Source: Bacteroidota bacterium
GTDB lineage: Bacteria > Bacteroidota > Bacteroidia > Chitinophagales > Chitinophagaceae
DNA length: 64,000 nucleotides
NCBI GenBank assembly: GCA_013289175.1
Contig: JABDAN010000004.1
Coordinates: forward strand, 1-64,000
Reading direction: 5' to 3'
Made by a program: the position numbers and the translations under genes. The notes below the pieces were generated by a model, which made no database searches, had not been told where the DNA came from, and worked only from the letters and a program-made list of their open reading frames with translations. Positions 19,121 through 34,756 of this stretch are shown piece after piece; the stretch's first letter is position 1, and every line of letters starts with the position of its first letter.

Positions 19121-21490
19121 ATGATTAAAAATTATTTCCTGACGGCCTTTCGTAGCGTCGTGAACAACAAGATTTTTTCTGCCATAAACATCTTAGGTCT
19201 GGCATTTGGCATTACTTGTAGTCTGTTGATTTTATTGTGGGTACAGGATGAATTGAACTACGATAAGGATCAACAGAACGGGAAAAAAATGTTTATCGTT
19301 TACCAACGACAATATATAGATCAAAAAATGGAAGGTGGATATTATACACCCGGCCTATTGTCGACGGAGCTAAAAAAAAATATTCCAGAAATAGAAAAAG
19401 CTGTAGGATACCGAGATTGCAACCAAGCTACTTTTGAAGCAGAAAATAAGGTGCTTAAACTGAATGGTGCCTGGACGGGGACCGACTATTTTAATATTTT
19501 CAGTTATCCTCTGTTACAAGGAAACAGGCCAAATGCCCTCAGTACGGTTTCAAGTATGGCCATTTCCAAAAATATGGCAGTAAAGTTTTTCGGAAGCGCT
19601 GCTGCCGCAATGGGTAAAACGATTCGGTATAAAAACAAAACTGATTTTACGGTAACCGCTGTTTTCGCAGATCTGCCAAAAAACGTCTCTCGAAGTTTTG
19701 ATTTTCTCCTCAATTGGACCGCCTTTGTAAAGGAAAATCCCTGGCTTGAGGACTGGAGAAACAACAGCCCGCAGACTTATATTCTACTACGCCCGGATGC
19801 AAAACCGGACTTGGTCAGGAAAAAGCTGACGCATTTTCTCGATGCATATAACAAAACTCAGTCGGCAAGTTTTAGGATTGAACTGGATATTCAAGCTTAT
19901 TGGGATACCTACTTGCATTCCAACTTTGTAAATGGGCGTTTACAAGGAGGACGGATTGAGTATATTAGACTCTTCAGTATCGTCGCGCTATTTATATTGC
20001 TGATAGCCTGCATCAATTTCATGAATCTGGCAACCGCACGTTCTGCCAAACGCAGCAAGGAGATTGGTATTCGGAAAGTATCCGGCGCCGTTCGATCTGA
20101 TTTGATTTTTCAATTTATAGGAGAAGCTATTTTTATAACAATAGTTGCTGTATTGGCTTCTTTGGTATTTTTATATTTCATTCTTCCATTTTTTAATCAG
20201 GTAACTGGAAAAAATATATCATTCCCCTCTTCTAACCAAGGCTTTTGGCTAATACTAGGGGGACTAACGCTGTTGACGGGAATCGTTGCGGGAAGTTATC
20301 CCGCTTTATTTCTCTCATCTTTTAATCCGGTCGAGGTATTAAAAGGTCCCGTTAAATTCAGGTCGGATTCTGTTCTGCTGCGGAAAGGATTGGTCGTTTT
20401 TCAGTTCATGCTAGCCATTATTCTCATTGTAGGGACGATCTATATTTCGAGGCAGATTGACTATGTTCAGCATATCAACCTGGGATATGACCGTGAAAAT
20501 CTCCTATTCATACCCTTGGAAGGGAATTTATCAAAGCAATATGTCTTGTTTAAAGAAGAAGCAATGCGGTCACCGGGTATTAAAGTCATGTCTAGGATCT
20601 CTGACGAACCGACCAACATCAGCAATTCTACTTCGAGTGTTATTTGGGAAGGCAAGGATCCCAATACAACTCCACAGTTTACAACAATTTCAGTGGGTTA
20701 TGATTTTGTGAAAACAATGAATCTTACATTCCTGAAAGGGCGGGATCTTTCTTCTATTTTTTCTTCAGATTCTTCCGGTTACCTGGTTAATGAATCAGCC
20801 TTGGCGATCATTCAATATAAGAATCCAATTGGAAAGCCACTCACGCTCTGGGACCAGAAAGGATCGATCGTCGGCGTGCTAAAAGACTTTCATTTTACTT
20901 CTTTGCATGAGCCCATAAAACCCTTGATCATTCATTGGGGAGAAAATGACGAAGGAGGGGTAGCCATGATTCGACTCAAAGCAGGTATGACAAAGTCAGC
21001 TGTGACCGATCTGGAAAAAATATGCAAATCCCTTAATCCGGCATTTCCCTTTACTTATTCATTTTCTGATGAGCAATATCAAAAATTATATAAATCGGAG
21101 CAGATAGTCAGTCGGCTTTCCAACCTATTTGCGGTGATTGCTATTGTAATATCCTCAATGGGTTTGTTGGGACTGGTTATGTTTACCGCCGAACAAAGGA
21201 CCCGCGAAATTGGAATCAGGAAAGTCTTAGGCGCCAGTGTGGTTTCTATTTTTGCCCTATTGTCAGGGGAATTTATCCTACTGGTAGGGATATCGATTTT
21301 GATTGCCAGCCCTTTGGCCTGGTGGGCGATGGATGTCTGGTCCAGGGGATTTGCTTACCATATAAAGATTGATGGCTGGCTTTTTGTTTTTGCAGGATTG
21401 GTCGCCATTCTGATTGCCTTGATCACGGTTAGTTTTCAATCGATTAAAGCGGCGATCGCCAAGCCCATTCGTAGCATACGGACCGAGTGA
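19121..21490 (+). CDS. FtsX-like ABC permease (MacB_PCD/FtsX), paralogue 1
   Basis: This 789-residue protein has the architecture of Bacteroidota orphan permeases: helix 1 near residues 20-42, a MacB-type periplasmic domain, three helices around 285-390 (ARSAKRSKEIGIRKVSGA follows the first), another helix (VFQFMLAIILIVGTIYI), a second periplasmic domain and three C-terminal helices with QRTREIGIRKVLGAS. It ends KPIRSIRTE. The family uses ATP hydrolysis by a separate ATPase to move or signal across the envelope without transport through the membrane. No partner ATPase is adjacent. A second copy follows 165 bp downstream. Confidence 0.9.
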   Translation: MIKNYFLTAFRSVVNNKIFSAINILGLAFGITCSLLILLWVQDELNYDKDQQNGKKMFIVYQRQYIDQKMEGGYYTPGLLSTELKKNIPEIEKAVGYRDCNQATFEAENKVLKLNGAWTGTDYFNIFSYPLLQGNRPNALSTVSSMAISKNMAVKFFGSAAAAMGKTIRYKNKTDFTVTAVFADLPKNVSRSFDFLLNWTAFVKENPWLEDWRNNSPQTYILLRPDAKPDLVRKKLTHFLDAYNKTQSASFRIELDIQAYWDTYLHSNFVNGRLQGGRIEYIRLFSIVALFILLIACINFMNLATARSAKRSKEIGIRKVSGAVRSDLIFQFIGEAIFITIVAVLASLVFLYFILPFFNQVTGKNISFPSSNQGFWLILGGLTLLTGIVAGSYPALFLSSFNPVEVLKGPVKFRSDSVLLRKGLVVFQFMLAIILIVGTIYISRQIDYVQHINLGYDRENLLFIPLEGNLSKQYVLFKEEAMRSPGIKVMSRISDEPTNISNSTSSVIWEGKDPNTTPQFTTISVGYDFVKTMNLTFLKGRDLSSIFSSDSSGYLVNESALAIIQYKNPIGKPLTLWDQKGSIVGVLKDFHFTSLHEPIKPLIIHWGENDEGGVAMIRLKAGMTKSAVTDLEKICKSLNPAFPFTYSFSDEQYQKLYKSEQIVSRLSNLFAVIAIVISSMGLLGLVMFTAEQRTREIGIRKVLGASVVSIFALLSGEFILLVGISILIASPLAWWAMDVWSRGFAYHIKIDGWLFVFAGLVAILIALITVSFQSIKAAIAKPIRSIRTE

Positions 21491-21667
21491 GATGGTTTGA
21501 AGTGACAAAAGGAAGGCATATCTAGAAAATACGGGCCAAAAACGCCGGGTAAACATCCAGATATCTACGCAACAATTTCATTTTCATATTGTCATTCCAT
21601 TTAAAGGCAGATTCCGCAGATCATAGTCACCTTTGCTAACATTCAATTTCTATATATGTTTTTTACC

Positions 21668-24028
21668 ATGTTAAAAGCTGGAATCCGAAATTTTTGGAAA
21701 AACAGAAGCTACAGTTTTCTGAACATTTTGGGCCTGGCGATCGGGATTGCCTGCGCTGGTCTTATATTTTTATGGGTAGAAGACGAGACCGCCTTTGATC
21801 AGGTCCATGTAAAAAAAGACAGGATCTATATGGTCTTGAATAACTGGCCCTTTTCTCAACATTTTAGCACTTATGAAAGTACCCCCGGATTGATGGGTCC
21901 GGCTATAAAAAAGGAGATTCCGGGTGTGGTCAACACTTGTAGAACCATCGAAGGCAAGTCCACCCAGCTGATCGCAATAGGCAATAAATCCATTTATTCG
22001 GATGGGATTTATGCGGATTCCTCTATATTTAGCATATTCACGATCCCTTTTTTACAAGGGAATGCCGCCACAGCGTTCAACCAAATCCATTCCATGGTCG
22101 TTACCGAAAAAGCGGCCAGGAAATATTTTGGCCAGGTAAACAATGTGCTGGGTCGTACCGTCCGCCTCGACAATAAACAGGACTACCGGATCACGGGTGT
22201 GGTGAAAGATTTACCGGAAAACAATTCAATCCAGTTTGAATGGATGGTGCCCTTCGATATATTTTTTAAGGAGAACAGCTGGCTTTCAAATTGGGACTCC
22301 AATGGGATTCTGACAATGGTGGAACTCGAAAAAAATGCCCATCCGGAACAGATCAATCAGTATCTACACGATTTCATTAAAAAGAGGGTGCCTAAGACCA
22401 TTGTGAGCAGCTTTCTTTTTCCCATGAAGGATTGGCATCTACGGTTTGATTTTGAGAATGGCAAACCCACAGGCAGAGGACGGATTCAGTATGTACATAT
22501 GTTTAGCCTGATTGCCTGGATTATTTTATTTCTGGCTTGCGTAAATTTCATGAATCTGGCGACTGCCCGCAGCGAAAAACGTGCAAAAGAGGTTGGCGTC
22601 AGAAAAGTGCTGGGGTCGGGTAGGGGAAAACTTATTCTGCAATTCATTTCAGAATCCCTCTTTCTGGCTTTCCTGTCGGTCATAGTCGGCATTCTCATCA
22701 TGATGGTTGCTTTGCCATTCTTCAATATACTGGCTCAAAAGCAGTTGCTATTGAATCTCGGCAGCCCGGTACACCTTTTGAGTCTCTTAGGGATTACCAT
22801 AGTCTGTGGCCTCGTAGCAGGTAGTTATCCTTCCCTTTACCTGTCTTCCTTTAACCCGGTGTTTGTATTAAAGGGCGTTAAAATGAAAAGTGGGAGCGCT
22901 TCGTTAATCCGCAAAGGACTGGTGGTCATGCAATTTTCTGTTTCTATCATCCTGATTATCTGTACCATCATTATTTTTCAACAAATTGAACATGCCAGGA
23001 ATCGAGAACTCGGCTACGAAAAAGACAACCTACTTGTGTCATACGTGCAGGGGGATATGGGGAAGAGATTCAATGTCATCAAAGAGGATTTACTCAACAC
23101 GGGAGTGGTAGAAAAAGCGGCGCTTTCAGATCACGAAACCATCTATGGCGGAAACAACAGTGATCATTACAGCTGGGAAGGGAAGGATCCCAATGTGACC
23201 AATATTGTTTCCCAGCGAAATGTGAGTCCGGAATTGCTTTCCACCAATGGCATCCAGGTCGTATTGGGACGCGATTTTTATCCAGATCCGGTCCTAGACA
23301 GCAACAACGTCATCATCACAGAATCGCTGGCAAAAATCATGAACCGGCCCAATCCGATTGGGGCCATCATTCGAGCAGACAGTGACCGGTTTACGGTCAT
23401 TGGAATGGTAAAGGATTTCGTATACGGCAATGTATTTGGGACCACACCTGATCCACTGATTTTCTTTTGTAATCCACATTACGAATACGAAAGTGTGATG
23501 TATATAAGGATAAAGAAGCAGGCAAATACCGAAAAAGCCGTCGCGCTCATTGAATCGATAATGAAAAAAAACAACCCATTGTATCCCTTCCAGTATCGGT
23601 TTGTGGACGATCAGTTTAACGAGCTATTCCTCAGTGAAATGCTGGTCAGTAAATTATCTCGCGTATTTGCCGTTTTGGCCATTTGTATTTCCTGCCTCGG
23701 TTTGTTTGGACTGGCTGCATTTACGGCAGAACGAAGAACAAAAGAAATCGGTATTCGTAAGGTACTCGGTGCCGGTGTGATGCGGTTGGCAGGACTGTTA
23801 TCCGGTGAATTTTTAAAATTGATCGCGGTTTCTTCGCTGTTGGCATTCCCGGTCGCCTGGTATACGATGCATTCCTGGCTACAGAATTATGCTTATCATA
23901 TTACAATCAGCTGGTGGGTCTTTGTTCTGGCCGGAGCGGCTTCTATTTTAATTGCCCTGATTACGATAAGTTTTCAGACCATCCGGGCGGCAATTGTAAA
24001 TCCGATCAGGAGTTTGCGTTCGGAATAA
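21668..24028 (+). CDS. FtsX-like ABC permease (MacB_PCD/FtsX), paralogue 2
   Basis: This protein of about 786 residues has the same helix and domain order as the gene before it, with RSEKRAKEVGVRKVLGS after the first FtsX helix and RRTKEIGIRKVLGAG near the end. It closes NPIRSLRSE. The ATG at 21668 (MLKAGIRNFWKN) fits the family start better than the ATG at 21656. The tandem arrangement suggests duplication followed by divergence of the periplasmic domains. No ATPase partner is nearby. The gene is convergent with the radical SAM gene. Confidence 0.9.
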   Translation: MLKAGIRNFWKNRSYSFLNILGLAIGIACAGLIFLWVEDETAFDQVHVKKDRIYMVLNNWPFSQHFSTYESTPGLMGPAIKKEIPGVVNTCRTIEGKSTQLIAIGNKSIYSDGIYADSSIFSIFTIPFLQGNAATAFNQIHSMVVTEKAARKYFGQVNNVLGRTVRLDNKQDYRITGVVKDLPENNSIQFEWMVPFDIFFKENSWLSNWDSNGILTMVELEKNAHPEQINQYLHDFIKKRVPKTIVSSFLFPMKDWHLRFDFENGKPTGRGRIQYVHMFSLIAWIILFLACVNFMNLATARSEKRAKEVGVRKVLGSGRGKLILQFISESLFLAFLSVIVGILIMMVALPFFNILAQKQLLLNLGSPVHLLSLLGITIVCGLVAGSYPSLYLSSFNPVFVLKGVKMKSGSASLIRKGLVVMQFSVSIILIICTIIIFQQIEHARNRELGYEKDNLLVSYVQGDMGKRFNVIKEDLLNTGVVEKAALSDHETIYGGNNSDHYSWEGKDPNVTNIVSQRNVSPELLSTNGIQVVLGRDFYPDPVLDSNNVIITESLAKIMNRPNPIGAIIRADSDRFTVIGMVKDFVYGNVFGTTPDPLIFFCNPHYEYESVMYIRIKKQANTEKAVALIESIMKKNNPLYPFQYRFVDDQFNELFLSEMLVSKLSRVFAVLAICISCLGLFGLAAFTAERRTKEIGIRKVLGAGVMRLAGLLSGEFLKLIAVSSLLAFPVAWYTMHSWLQNYAYHITISWWVFVLAGAASILIALITISFQTIRAAIVNPIRSLRSE

Positions 24029-24050: not shown

Positions 24051-25061
24051 TCAGGCACAGACCCCATGGCTTTCATGAACGATCAATTCAGTCCATTTTA
24101 TCATATCGTCTTCGATTAGGGCGATTTGATGATACACATCCTTTATCAAATCATATAAATTTGCTCCTTTTTCCCTTATGTAGACCGAAAAAATATCCTT
24201 GCCCAAGGCAATGTCACCAATGTTTCCCAGACAGTAGAACGGGTCGAATCCATAGGACATAGGAAATATATTGCCGGTTTCATCCATAATGAGAGACTTA
24301 ACGGTATCGGCAAAATTGGCGGTTGTTATTTTATAGGTTTCCCCTAAATAATTGACGGAGGCAGGAGAGCGAAGGACAAATTCTTTATGGAGATAGTCGA
24401 GTTGTATTTTCATTTTCCCTGCGTATTTTTCTTCCAGAAAACTGCTGATGATAAATACTTTATGAAGAGTCTCCTGGGAAGGTAACATATGGGTGAATTC
24501 GGAGGCTGCCCTGCCCGTCAGTTCAAGCGGATGTAGTTGCAGCAGACCTGCTCCTTGTTCATATACAAAATCAGCCAGCGCAATCAGGTTTTCCCAGCTG
24601 TTTTCAGTGATGGTATGAATAAAACCGAAAGGGATTTTCATTTCCCGGAGAACAGCGACACCGGCCAGCATTTTATCATAAGCGCCTGGCTGGTTGCGCA
24701 CCTCATCATGAAATACCCGGTCACCATCGATGCTGATGGCGATCAAATCGATATACTCCAGAATTTTTCTTCCCCTTTCGGTTTTTAACAACATGCCGTT
24801 GGAAGCCGTTAGATTTTTATAGCCTAACAGGCGGCTGGCTCGCAATAATTCTTCCAATTCTCTGTATAAAAACGGCTCACCGCCCGATACTGAAATAACA
24901 TTAAATCCATACCCTCTTGCGTAATCAAGAAAATCTACGATCGCTCGATGACCAATTTGGCCTTTCATCGCGGGACCGGAAGAAGAATAGCAATGCCTGC
25001 ATTTTAGGTTGCAGGTGAGGGTCGGATGAATTTGAATGATATTTAAACCGGGCTTTTTCAT
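24051..25061 (-). CDS. Radical SAM enzyme with degenerate SPASM-like tail
   Basis: This protein of about 336 residues has a radical SAM core: CNLKCRHC provides the CxxxCxxC cluster ligands, and SVSGGEPF is the SAM-binding GGE motif. The C-terminal region has DETGNIFPMSYGFDPFYCLGNIGD, which resembles the start of a SPASM/twitch domain but has Met where the usual PC cysteine would be. The protein ends VCA. The start chosen (MKKPGLN) lies 1 bp after the stop of the upstream small gene; an ATG at 25082 would overlap it by 20 bp. The tight coupling suggests that the two proteins act together, perhaps as maturase and substrate or as enzyme and partner. Confidence 0.88.
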   Translation of the reverse strand: MKKPGLNIIQIHPTLTCNLKCRHCYSSSGPAMKGQIGHRAIVDFLDYARGYGFNVISVSGGEPFLYRELEELLRASRLLGYKNLTASNGMLLKTERGRKILEYIDLIAISIDGDRVFHDEVRNQPGAYDKMLAGVAVLREMKIPFGFIHTITENSWENLIALADFVYEQGAGLLQLHPLELTGRAASEFTHMLPSQETLHKVFIISSFLEEKYAGKMKIQLDYLHKEFVLRSPASVNYLGETYKITTANFADTVKSLIMDETGNIFPMSYGFDPFYCLGNIGDIALGKDIFSVYIREKGANLYDLIKDVYHQIALIEDDMIKWTELIVHESHGVCA

Positions 25062-25062
25062 G

Positions 25063-25413
25063 TTATCTGGTTTGAGCTCCAATGTTTCCTGCCTGTTCTA
25101 CAGGGCCTACTCCTTGAAATTTGACAACGGCTTCGAATGCGAGCGGATTAGGGATGCCATGCGAAGTAATATAGGCAGAACTGATTTCCTTGCTGATAAG
25201 GTTTGCTGCCAGTCCTGGATTGGTCAGGGGGAATCGGAACTGAATATTAAATTCATCCGGGTAGGGGATGCCGATCCACCATATTCGTTCGATGGTAAGA
25301 TCCTCGCTCTTCAAGGAGGAAAGATGAGCAGAATAACTCTTCAACTTGGATTGGTCCATGCTGGGACTGGAAAGATGCTTCATGAGCGTTTCTTCAATGT
25401 TTGATTTTGCCAT
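25063..25413 (-). CDS. Unrecognised 116-residue protein coupled to a radical SAM enzyme
   Basis: The natural start is ATG 25413 (MAKSNIEETLMKHLS). The frame is open further upstream, but that extension is not protein-like. The N-terminal third is polar and helical. The middle reads like alternating strands (RIWWIGIPYPDEFNIQFRFPL), and the C-terminus is Gly-rich (KFQGVGPVEQAGNIGAQTR). It contains no cysteine and no signal peptide. The stop is one base before the radical SAM start. It could be a peptide substrate, a recognition partner or an unrelated passenger. No family is recognised. Confidence 0.6.
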   Translation of the reverse strand: MAKSNIEETLMKHLSSPSMDQSKLKSYSAHLSSLKSEDLTIERIWWIGIPYPDEFNIQFRFPLTNPGLAANLISKEISSAYITSHGIPNPLAFEAVVKFQGVGPVEQAGNIGAQTR

Positions 25414-26045
25414 AAAAAAAGGTTTAATGTTGCCTACTCTGAATCGGATTTTCGGCTTTCTCCGTTGGGGATTGAGTATTTCGTGGCCTAGATAACTACA
25501 AGATACATCCCACGGGGAGCGGTTGTGATGAGATTTTGTATCTGGTATAAAATGTAATGTATCTGGCACCCCCCTTCATTGATCGCAATTTTTTAAGGTG
25601 GGGAAACAAATGACGGATGCCGGTCGTTAATCGGTAATTCTCTGCAGGATGTCCGTAGGAATTTGTAGTTCTCCTATCCAGGGAAATGCATTTTCTTTTT
25701 AGATCGCGAGAAATAGATTTATTTAAGGGGAATGTTCTAGGCCATCAGGCAACTTATTCGACTTGAATGACCCCATAAAATAGGATAACCTGATTGACGG
25801 ATTGCTCATTAACCCCCGATTTATGCACCTATTAACAAGGACACATTAATTGAGGGGATGACCAGACCCTACCCTGGCCAGACAAACGGGCGTCATTCGG
25901 TTAAATGGCCCAAGAAAGGGAATTAAAATAGTATAAATAATTCTTTTGATCATACCTTAAATGCCTACTTTTATTCCGAATCCTGCCTGCCGTCAACCCC
26001 CTTCTTTACCCTATACATTTTAAAAAACCTTTAAAAATTTCAAGC
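25414..26045. other. Long intergenic region between divergent genes
   Basis: Apart from the TGTATCTGG direct repeat, these 632 bp hold no credible gene. They should contain the promoters for the leftward radical SAM pair and for the rightward SnoaL-like lipoprotein gene. The right end is AT-rich. Confidence 0.4.
25537..25566. promoter_or_regulatory. Direct repeat TGTATCTGG with 21-bp period
   Basis: Two perfect copies of TGTATCTGG lie at 25537-25545 and 25558-25566, separated by 12 bp, which is two helical turns start to start. They are about 125-150 bp upstream of the leftward small gene/radical SAM pair. A related AGATACAT lies in the opposite orientation near 25501. Spaced 9-bp direct repeats are typical of LytTR-type and some other response-regulator sites. 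Confidence 0.4.
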
Positions 26046-31909: not shown

Positions 31910-31947
31910 TTAGATATCAATGACCGTTTATTAGATATCAATGACCG
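31910..31947. repeat. Tandem direct repeat, 17 bp at 21-bp period
   Basis: TTAGATATCAATGACCG occurs twice (31910-31926 and 31931-31947), each followed by a TTTA or CTTA tail. It lies in the 316-bp convergent gap between the DUF6799 gene and the leftward FtsX-like gene, so it is not upstream of either. The rest of the gap shows no gene. Confidence 0.7.
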
Positions 31948-31987
31948 CTTAAATATTTTATTAACAATCAACTCCTGCCAAGTATTT

Positions 31988-34411
31988 TCATTCTGTTCTC
32001 AGACTTTTTACCGGATTTGCAATAGCCGCCTTCACTGCCTGAAAGCTTATAGTGAATAAAGCAATCATGAGAGTTGTGATACCGGAAAATGCAAAAACCC
32101 ACCAGTGAATATTTATTCGATAGACGAAGTCCTGTAACCAATGATTCATTGCCCACCAGGCCAGTGGAAAAGCAATTAGAGATGCAATAAATACAAGTTT
32201 CAGGAAATCCTTTGAAATCATGGACACAATGTTGGGAATGTTTGCTCCCAAAACCTTTCTGATGCCTATTTCTTTTATTCGCTGCTCAGCCGCGTAAGTA
32301 ACCAATCCGAATAAACCAAGGCAGGCAATCACGATAGCGAGTATGGCGAATGCGATAAAAATCTGTCCCATTCTTTGTTCGGTTGTATAAAGTTTATTGA
32401 AATCCTCATCCATAAAGGAATAGTCGAAAGGTTGTGCAGGTGAAATGGCTTTCCATTTATTTTTTATCTGCGCAATTACGTTGGGAATGTCGGTTGTACG
32501 GATACGCGCGGATATATTTCCATTGTCCTTTCCCAGAAACAGTGCTAGAGGGGTGACTACATCGCGCAGGGAACTGAAGTTGAAACTCTTCATAACCCCG
32601 ATAATATGGTATTCATTTAATTTCCTGGTCTTTATGTCGGTGATGCTGTAAAGTTTTTTATTAAGGAGGTCCTTGGTGCCAAGAAATTTTGCGGCAGCTT
32701 CATTGATAACAATACCGGTAGAATCGGTAGGGAATTGAGGTGAAAAATTTCTTCCTTCTATTATTTTGATCTCCAGGGTGGGGACATAATTTTCATCGAC
32801 AGACCAACTTTGCATAGACATTCCAGAATTGGGATCCAACGCTGTCGAAGTGAAGTAGGAATTATTATTTCTATTGCCGTTGACAGGAAGAAAACCGGTC
32901 ATCGTGGCATTTTGGATGCCACTGATTTGCAGCATTTCATTTTTAAGTGTTGTAGCCTGATCTCTTAATGCATCGGTATTGTTTATCGTAATGATTTGAT
33001 TGCGGTTAAACCCGATGTCTTTGTTGTGTATATAATTGAGTTGGTTGTAGATAACAACAGTGCCAAATATCAGGACGATGGAAATGATAAATTGAAAAAC
33101 TACCAGGGAACTGCGCAGCCAGGATCTTTTAAATCCACCAGCTAGTTTGCCCTTTAATACTTCAATTGGTTGAAAGGATGAGAGGAAAAAGGCGGGATAA
33201 CTGCCTGCCAGCAGGCCCACAACCAGCATCAGGATAACCAGCCAAAACAGCATGTTGGGTTGAAACAAGACAAATGATTGGATATTTTTTCCGGCAAGCT
33301 GGTTAAAATAAGGTAGTAAAAGCCAAGAGATAACCATAGAAAAAATCAGCGCAATTAAACTGATCAACAGGGATTCAGTTAAAAATTGGTATATGAGACT
33401 AATTTTAAGGGAGCCCAGCACCTTTCGTACACCCACTTCTTTTGCCCGGTTCGATGAACGGGCTGTTGAAAGATTCATGAAGTTTACGCAGGCAATTATC
33501 AAAATTAAAAAGGCGATGCCTGAAAAAATATATACAAATTCAGCATTGCCATTGCCATCCAACTCGGCCAATTTATTGGAGTGAAGATGAATGGCCGTCA
33601 GCGGGGTGAGGCTAGCTCGGATATATCCACCTGATTTCTTAAAATCTTCCAGGCTTTGGTTAATGACGCTCTTTAGTTGCGGACCAACATGTTTATCCAT
33701 GAAGGGATTCAGTTGTGATTCCACTTGGTTTATATCCGTATTCTGCTTCAAAAGAATATAAGTGCTCCAGTTTTCGCTTAACCAGTTGTCATCACTGCTT
33801 CCTGAATTTTCCAGCATGGGCACGAAAAAATCAAAATTGAAATGAGATTGTTTAGGGATGTCTTTGATTACAGCTGTGATTTTATAATTACCAGTATCAT
33901 TAATAAGCACGGTTTTTCCAACAACATCAGTGCTATTGAAATATTTATTTGCCATCGATTCTGTGATGACCAGCGAATGATACTCTTTTAGAGCGGTTTT
34001 CGGATTGCCAGAAATTACCGGTAGCGTAAAAACCTCAAATAATGTAGAGTCAGCATAACCAACGCGGTTTTCCTGTACATTTTCATTACCCTTTTTTATG
34101 AGAAAACCGCCATACCAGCGAATGCGCGTATATTGTTCCACTTGCGGTATTTCCCGGACCATAGCGGAGCCCTGTAAAGCAGCGGCAACTGCCAGATCCA
34201 TATGGTTATTCCCAAATTTAATTTCGTTATTGACGCGGTAGATTCTATCTGCCTTCGTGTTGTATTTGTCAAAACTCAGTTCATCTTTTACATATAATAG
34301 GATCAGCAGGCAAGTTGACAAGCCTACTGCCAGTCCGAAAATATTTATGGAGGAATAAAATTTGCTTTTTAAAAGGTTACGGAACGCTGTTTTGATATAA
34401 TTTTTGAACAT
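31988..34411 (-). CDS. FtsX-like ABC permease (MacB_PCD/FtsX), paralogue 3
   Basis: This protein of about 807 residues has the same layout as the two permeases at 19-24 kb: MFKNYIKTAFRNLLKSKFYSSINIFGL at the start, a periplasmic domain, RSSNRAKEVGVRKVLGS after the first FtsX helix, LRSSLVVFQFIISIVLIFG, a second periplasmic domain, EQRIKEIGIRKVLGAN, and the close NPVKSLRTE. ATG 34411 matches family starts; ATG 34429 would add six residues. It is a separate copy on the opposite strand, with no ATPase gene adjacent. Confidence 0.9.
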   Translation of the reverse strand: MFKNYIKTAFRNLLKSKFYSSINIFGLAVGLSTCLLILLYVKDELSFDKYNTKADRIYRVNNEIKFGNNHMDLAVAAALQGSAMVREIPQVEQYTRIRWYGGFLIKKGNENVQENRVGYADSTLFEVFTLPVISGNPKTALKEYHSLVITESMANKYFNSTDVVGKTVLINDTGNYKITAVIKDIPKQSHFNFDFFVPMLENSGSSDDNWLSENWSTYILLKQNTDINQVESQLNPFMDKHVGPQLKSVINQSLEDFKKSGGYIRASLTPLTAIHLHSNKLAELDGNGNAEFVYIFSGIAFLILIIACVNFMNLSTARSSNRAKEVGVRKVLGSLKISLIYQFLTESLLISLIALIFSMVISWLLLPYFNQLAGKNIQSFVLFQPNMLFWLVILMLVVGLLAGSYPAFFLSSFQPIEVLKGKLAGGFKRSWLRSSLVVFQFIISIVLIFGTVVIYNQLNYIHNKDIGFNRNQIITINNTDALRDQATTLKNEMLQISGIQNATMTGFLPVNGNRNNNSYFTSTALDPNSGMSMQSWSVDENYVPTLEIKIIEGRNFSPQFPTDSTGIVINEAAAKFLGTKDLLNKKLYSITDIKTRKLNEYHIIGVMKSFNFSSLRDVVTPLALFLGKDNGNISARIRTTDIPNVIAQIKNKWKAISPAQPFDYSFMDEDFNKLYTTEQRMGQIFIAFAILAIVIACLGLFGLVTYAAEQRIKEIGIRKVLGANIPNIVSMISKDFLKLVFIASLIAFPLAWWAMNHWLQDFVYRINIHWWVFAFSGITTLMIALFTISFQAVKAAIANPVKSLRTE

Positions 34412-34756
34412 ATAGTAAGCATTATGCAAATAAACAATCGAAATGGATTGTTTGAAAAGGGCTAAACGGGTGCCAGGTTGTTATAAGGCTGCTGGTCAAT
34501 TTCTTGTAAATGTATATTGGTCACTGATGTGCGGTATTGATACAGTGACTGTTCGATGGAAGACTGCGTTTCTGCTCCTGGGATATAAATATAGCGAAAC
34601 GATTTCGAGAGGAAAGCTCTGTTTATACTCGGGTTTTGTATGGAAAACACGAGAAAGTGACGAAAATACTTTCTTAATTGCATGATAATCAAAACTATAT
34701 AAGACTGCTAATCTTTTACTGGATGTTCGCTTAGAGCCATTTTAGCATGATAAAAA

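Follow-up and report, generated by a model that had tools for sequence, protein, structure and literature searches.

Radical SAM enzymes encoded beside small proteins are a known kind of gene pair, and PqqD, MftB and PlpY are recognition or activating partners of their respective enzymes. The usual SPASM tail has a Pro-Cys form, and viperins hold a single cluster. The DUF805 motifs, a set of RNAs to which we return below, reportedly stem from a comparative-genomics screen of 2017. In spliceotides (PlpXY), a radical SAM enzyme likewise acts on a small ribosomal protein at a Gly-containing motif, a parallel drawn in part from two reviews (PMC11002830, PMC10373908). An example of how such pairs are found by genome neighbourhood is given in PMC9062424.

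Here we report that the window, the whole stretch of 64,000 nucleotides analysed, contains a pair of this kind in which neither protein fits a specific named family (Table 1). Searches of one literature library found no paper on the gene pair or on the DUF805b RNA that precedes it. The pair is present in a single copy in its own genome (assembly 80% complete, 3.2 Mb). As the first-pass annotation had read it, the small gene stops one base ahead of the radical SAM start, in the order TAA, one base, ATG on the minus strand; the alternative enzyme start, a TTG at 25082, would overlap the small gene. The window also encodes three proteins of about 800 residues (19121-21490, 21656-24028 and 31988-34429) that form one blastp cluster and by eye resemble FtsX/MacB-type permeases. 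Two of these genes stand in tandem just past the end of the enzyme gene, and a 21-bp unit is repeated twice with 95% matches at 31910-31951, just past the stop-codon end of the third.

Table 1. Features of the gene pair and its leader, in window coordinates.
Feature	Position	Strand	Basis or remark
DUF805b RNA (Rfam RF02914), cis-regulatory leader	25431..25465	(-)	17 nt before the small-gene ATG
Small protein gene, 116 aa	25063..25413	(-)	ORF; no Pfam/NCBIfam family above cut-off
First predicted hairpin turn GIPYPD, G48	25255..25272	(-)	invariant, 13 rows of A11
Second predicted hairpin turn GIPNPL, G86	25141..25158	(-)	invariant, 13 rows of A11
Radical SAM enzyme gene, 336 aa	24051..25061	(-)	Pfam Radical_SAM, 65.5 bits
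CNLKCRHC cluster-binding motif	24990..25013	(-)	three Cys invariant in 14 rows
SPASM-like tail ETGNIFPMSYG, without Cys	24249..24281	(-)	no Cys after the Pro

The enzyme belongs to the radical SAM superfamily, its Pfam match standing well over the cut-off of 29.5 bits and its cysteine motif being invariant among the homologues aligned. The CxxxCxxC and GGE motifs noticed at first sight are borne out as CNLKCRHC and SGGEP, and the SPASM-like tail is as it had been described, with no cysteine after the proline; across the homologues this position is occupied by Met, Val, Phe or Ile. Cysteine columns common to the 14 enzyme rows number three, all of them radical SAM cluster ligands, and the enzyme of locus L012 has three cysteines in total, so that a single cluster is to be expected and the enzyme probably holds one. 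In core sequence and predicted fold it is like SkfB, SuiB and PqqE, the peptide maturases that head the fold matches of its model, and like NirJ, AhbC and AhbD. It differs from the SPASM maturases in that its family has no conserved SPASM or auxiliary cysteines, and we rejected SPASM/twitch membership on that count; membership among NirJ, AhbC and AhbD was rejected because NirJ, the top NCBIfam model, gives 94 bits against the 515 called for. None of the best 25 NCBIfam models reaches its cut-off with the enzyme, all scores being far below. Judged by its sequence, the enzyme thus fits no specific named family. A fused model of the small protein and the enzyme reached a pLDDT of 75.8 and a pTM of 0.65, figures that carry no docking claim.

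With the own genome and repeats counted in, close relatives of the enzyme were found at E<=1e-35 in 7 of 394 genomes of the family and 4 of 395 of the phylum, at E<=1e-30 in 4 of 298 genomes of the order, and at E<=1e-50 in 2 of 295 of the class and in two genera (2 of 10 genomes in one, 5 of 17 in the other). The family of G802 gave matches in 12 of 86 genomes, ten of which, at 107-123 bits over the core only, were left out. Runella limosa (Bacteroidota) also carries the gene pair, and the window probably comes from the same phylum. In the enzyme tree, a grouping of the window with other members of its genus is not strongly supported, and we therefore regard the distribution as patchy.

A patchy distribution, a probable single cluster as in viperins, and matches of the PADLOC pVip models to the enzyme core (E=5e-18 for P0002, 4e-23 for P0005) would all suit a viperin-like enzyme, or another that acts on a small molecule such as a nucleotide, perhaps in defence, with the small protein as its regulator or output. 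The likeness to prokaryotic viperins is, however, a likeness of the radical SAM core, to which the matches are confined; the window enzyme has a C-terminal part past the matched core and a linked small protein, and its NCBIfam viperin score of 60.7 bits against a cut-off of 180 led us to reject membership. Beyond the pair no gene recurs widely in the neighbourhoods, and the phage collection searched with the enzyme held no match. We consider an explanation of this sort very unlikely.

Among plasmids, the Runella enzyme matched 40 records and the Runella small protein none; in the two records examined, H1 from Mycolicibacterium and H2 from Vagococcus, the ORFs upstream are unlike the small-protein family. 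The 33 viral-contig loci (L019-L051) were likewise discarded, matching at best with 28% over half the query, and a motif scan for a small ORF with the second-hairpin motif returned one unrelated ORF. The enzyme of L014 and that of the Mycolicibacterium plasmid (L052) form the outgroup in the tree, and the small ORF upstream of each is of another kind. By eye, the H1 and L014 small proteins are alike, and a two-row profile of them does not reach the small-protein family of the window, for which reason both enzymes were used only as outgroup. We observed by eye that the L014 and L052 enzymes, from a relative in the phylum and from the plasmid, have three clustered extra cysteines; their small protein is a different one, of about 110 residues and rich in Gly, Pro, Arg and His.

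The coupling of enzyme and small protein is real. Sixteen intact enzymes were available (the window, L002, L003, L006-L010, L012, L013, L017, L018, L067 and L072-L074), and a clear small-protein homologue lies directly upstream on the same strand in 14 of these loci, with a probable one in L013 and a remnant in L017. Enzymes regularly found without the small gene, which the first-pass annotation had named as a finding that would make the coupling incidental, were thus not encountered among these 16 relatives, a trace being present even in the last. By profile the L013 small protein falls short of significance (E 0.015-0.17); where it lies, the GIPWPD motif it carries and the RNA leader ahead of it are the grounds for calling it probable. 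L017 retains 33 codons (1376-1480), comprising the second hairpin alone, before an intact, long-branched enzyme. A further locus, L011, is an enzyme fragment, and the small gene was seen neither beside it nor in its genome, G041. Searching 148 relatives with the small protein only returned the window, one chance match and G022, in which the enzyme adjoins the small gene; L004, the third match of the first such search (E 0.004), was dismissed as chance, as it overlaps an aminotransferase-like ORF. A small-protein profile run on 234 genomes of the family found the window alone, G000 and G041 being the enzyme-bearing genomes sure to be in that sample, so that this result bears little on whether the small gene occurs apart from the enzyme.

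In 9 of 13 homologous pairs the two genes share 4 nt; the remaining four are spaced by +5, +6, +11 and an uncertain -29, and the L013 spacing is +4. When 298 ORFs of at least 90 aa from 17 neighbourhoods were clustered by blastp, ten genera were represented in the enzyme cluster and seven in that of the small protein, followed by four for an ABC-transporter-like cluster and three for a response-regulator-like one. Apart from the pair, then, four of ten genera is the widest recurrence of any gene in these neighbourhoods, so that no other linked substrate gene is in sight, and no exporter or protease recurs near the pair.

The small protein has no match above cut-off in Pfam or NCBIfam, which speaks against its belonging to a known, unrelated family. 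A fold search of the PDB gave no significant match (best E 0.064), and a VIA fold search gave Z values up to 7.4, a level that the tool rates as common. The protein has no cysteine in its translation and no signal peptide visible by eye, and the strand-like character of its middle agrees with strands placed there by a low-confidence model, in all of which the initial description holds. The model itself is weak (pLDDT 62, pTM 0.50) and suggests the order aa-bb-a-bb. The Gly-rich C-terminal end that had caught the eye is not a shared trait: L002, L003 and the five homologues of the genus g23 stop right after the last strand. Conservation, which had been looked for at C-terminal positions, lies in the double hairpin instead.

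The sole invariant columns among 13 small-protein rows are G48 and G86, each of which opens a predicted hairpin turn, although the placement of L018 at the first glycine differs between alignments. The second glycine is followed by Ile or Val in 14 of 14 members and, four positions on, by Pro in 9 of 14; after the first, Ile or Val is found in 11 of 14. The residue before the second glycine is Tyr, Lys, His or Ile. The two hairpins are alike in register, with a score of 11 against -209 to -378 when one is slid along the other, and column shuffling attained the observed score in 10 of 20000 cases.

That the window's small protein is just 12-32% identical to its homologues might be taken to mean that the small ORF is not a real gene and that the pairing is incidental. 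A profile built without the window nevertheless recovers its small protein at E=1e-15 (53 bits; the L018 small protein is found at 5e-6 in the same comparison), dN in g23 is far below dS for the small protein (most dS values being near or past saturation), and the RNA leader marks the start codon at a near-constant distance of 16-21 nt in 9 of 11 loci. We give the incidental explanation almost no weight.

The same family comparisons bear on a more serious alternative, in which the small protein is a dedicated partner subunit for recognition or activation and the true substrate, be it a peptide, a protein or a small molecule, is encoded elsewhere. The frequent 4-nt overlap is what one sees for stoichiometric subunits, and in g23 the small protein has a lower dN than the enzyme in 10 of 10 pairs of five species, with most dS near or past saturation. 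This constraint is a feature of one genus: between L008 and L009 the small protein is the less constrained of the two (dN/dS about 0.27 versus 0.16 for the enzyme), and in the pairs L008/L010 and L009/L010 the two dN values are about equal. Distances among small proteins and among enzymes are correlated (r 0.95 over 14 loci and 0.79 over nine diverged loci, with 0 of 5000 permutations reaching either value), as a partner would predict, but such a correlation is also expected from linkage alone. The lack of a recurring exporter or protease also suits a partner, whereas the lack of a second conserved gene or other substrate candidate in the neighbourhoods does not. A clear likeness to the familiar partners is also lacking: there is no Pfam match to the PqqD family above cut-off, and the weakly predicted element order, aa-bb-a-bb, appears to differ from the strict definition of an RRE in PMC12710340. 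We hold the partner role to be a real contender, somewhat improbable taken by itself.

Upstream of the pair, a direct repeat had been singled out in the first-pass annotation. The repeat, CCAGATACA on the minus strand, is indeed there twice, 21 nt apart (25537-25545 and 25558-25566), but we rejected it as incidental: 136 of 2000 simulated sequences of equal composition hold a 9-mer repeat within 60 nt, and none of the 13 homologues examined has CCAGATACA in its 250 nt of upstream sequence. The shared regulatory feature is a DUF805b RNA, overlooked in the first-pass annotation, which in the window sits between the repeat and the small gene and scores 43.1 bits against a gathering score of 35.6. 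A DUF805b RNA was reported upstream of the small gene in 11 of the 16 loci. Its score exceeds the gathering score in four (the window, L008, L067 and L009) and falls below it (34.1 to 19.6 bits) in L007, L072, L074, L013, L003, L006 and L073, the last reported at E 0.47 only. None was reported at L002, L010, L012, L017 or L018. The Runella limosa pair is one at which the RNA was not found.

The RNA appears to have more structure than the printed Rfam line for RF02914 conveys. Comparing the window's RNA with 51 further DUF805b RNAs (10 from pair loci and 41 from relatives or elsewhere in the own genome), we observed pairing between two triplets, one in the loop before GAAA and one in the tail after GAGUA. 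Of 147 cells from 49 distinct RNAs, 143 are paired, and the outer pairs vary on both sides (G-C, A-U, U-A; C-G, U-A). Over 10000 trials with shuffled partners the count averaged 125.7 and never exceeded 133, a shuffle that leaves sequence kinship in place. The triplet was defined by the rule N-C-Y before GAAA, which fixes the C of the middle pair, and three CCT rows are mis-set under it. This covariation, above the highest shuffled value, supports an H-type pseudoknot, which is missing from the printed structure line.

DUF805b RNAs are also present away from the pair. In 21 related genomes there are at least 59 sites at E<=0.01, with one or more in at least 16 genomes; 150 first-look candidates were scored per genome, which makes the site counts a lower bound. 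Among 14 control genomes, two have a match, neither over the cut-off. Of the 58 sites besides the window's, 41 were taken and the downstream gene was readable at 40: 24 of these genes encode 140 residues or fewer, and a crude rule makes 34 of the products signal-peptide-like. Among them are small proteins resembling DUF6520, with scores under the Pfam cut-off, as well as lipoproteins, large exported proteins and a rhodopsin-like protein, all named by eye, so that the RNA is not a marker of precursors alone. In genome G002 the cluster around an RNA-led 56-aa peptide includes a glycosyltransferase and a LanC-like protein. Three GG-leader-like peptides of G009 carry the RNA; the two that were scanned have no NCBIfam match above cut-off. 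The leader of these three, (M/L)KKLNLA(N/D)ARQL, is also that of a fourth peptide, a TIGR04149 'rSAM-modified RiPP' (27.4 bits versus 25) that adjoins a C39-peptidase ABC transporter and has by eye a degenerate RNA-like stretch, although the Rfam search does not report one.

Several RNA-led genes deserve mention in their own right. Some relatives (L121, L122, L123-L124 and L125) have three to six DUF805b RNAs grouped together, each ahead of its own gene, often one for a small exported-looking protein or a GG-leader-like peptide; one RNA-led GG-leader-like peptide (L125, 9520-9790, minus strand) seems to start with CTG, not ATG. The window's own genome has two more DUF805b leaders, L136 and L137, before exported-looking proteins of 76-77 residues. 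The L137 gene has as its neighbour a member of the Pfam MauE family, and the neighbour of the L136 gene looks similar.

How, then, does the pair compare with the described peptide systems? Its RNA leader is a member of the DUF805b family, here ahead of a radical SAM pair, and the three G009 peptides that share the TIGR04149 leader sequence link the same RNA to RiPPs of Bacteroidota. The window's small protein has no GG leader and no match to TIGR04149 at E<=1, and it was rejected as a precursor of that family. Relative to spliceotides, the enzyme is far below the PlpX-type model (49.9 bits against 725 for TIGR04103, which we take to be IPR026482), the X-Tyr-Gly motif is absent from the small protein, where Ile and His precede the glycines (WIG, SHG), conserved auxiliary-cluster cysteines are lacking, and no PlpY-like third gene recurs nearby. 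Because of the model score, the motif and the cysteines we do not file the pair as a spliceotide. A search of 99 genomes of the phylum with TIGR04103, meant to supply an enzyme for comparison, gave none of the PlpX type. Tyrosine does precede the second-hairpin glycine in 9 of 15 members (the L017 remnant included, L013 left out). Among the splice tags given in PMC10533398, GPIRPLYGLPI resembles FPYGILNP and IYGIPAFE of some small-protein homologues.

Based on these observations, we suggest that the small protein is the substrate of the enzyme. Of the readings considered this is the most likely, with the partner subunit nearly as likely, and we put it forward tentatively, at somewhat short of an even chance. 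Three points lead us to favour it: the small gene occupies the slot that, behind this leader, is elsewhere filled by genes for peptides and small exported proteins; no further gene is widely found around the pair; and conservation falls on predicted hairpin turns. Consistent with a substrate are the linkage, seen in all but one of the 16 intact loci (the exception keeping a remnant), the apparent similarity of the two hairpins around their glycines, the leader RNA ahead of peptide genes in G009 and G002, the predicted fold matches of the enzyme to SkfB, SuiB and PqqE, and the persistence in L017 of the second hairpin alone beside an intact enzyme. Arguing against a substrate are the lack of a leader/core division in the small protein and of an exporter or protease nearby, and, as far as the alignment indicates, of any conserved turn side chain besides glycine. 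The gene overlap and the constraint seen in one genus also suit a partner subunit, the RNA precedes non-precursor proteins too and its counterpart at the TIGR04149 peptide of G009 is degenerate, the structure models are weak, and turn glycines may be kept for structure only. The first-pass proposal of a peptide-modifying pair of an unrecognised type remains a fair one in view of the coupling and of a small protein without a match to a known family above cut-off, although a partner role would fit several of the facts about as well as modification does.

If the small protein is the substrate, the module would stand alone and have three parts: the leader RNA of the DUF805b family, the radical SAM enzyme, and a small protein that is folded. 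One [4Fe-4S] cluster with SAM would generate a 5'-deoxyadenosyl radical, and the enzyme would then alter the small protein, most likely at or beside the turn glycines of the two similar hairpins. Since no auxiliary cluster is expected, the change would probably be redox-neutral, or else the single cluster would serve as electron acceptor. The comparisons establish that the pair exists and is conserved, that the glycine motif occurs twice, that the enzymes share no cysteines beyond the cluster ligands, and that an RNA leader is present; from them we infer a folded small protein acting as substrate, where it is altered, by what kind of chemistry, and with how many clusters. The fullest version of the proposal is a new class of modification at the scale of a protein: an enzyme whose auxiliary clusters have been lost would remodel two hairpins at their glycine turns, in a folded protein of about 100 residues that stays in the cell, and a pseudoknotted DUF805b RNA of the kind also found at peptide-precursor genes would set expression. 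Taken as a whole, we regard this as unlikely.

The pair nonetheless offers a compact two-gene system in which to ask how a radical SAM enzyme that apparently lacks auxiliary clusters acts on a small protein or works together with it. The system also ties an orphan family of regulatory RNAs to a defined operon and to peptide genes, and the proposed pseudoknot of that RNA can now be tested.
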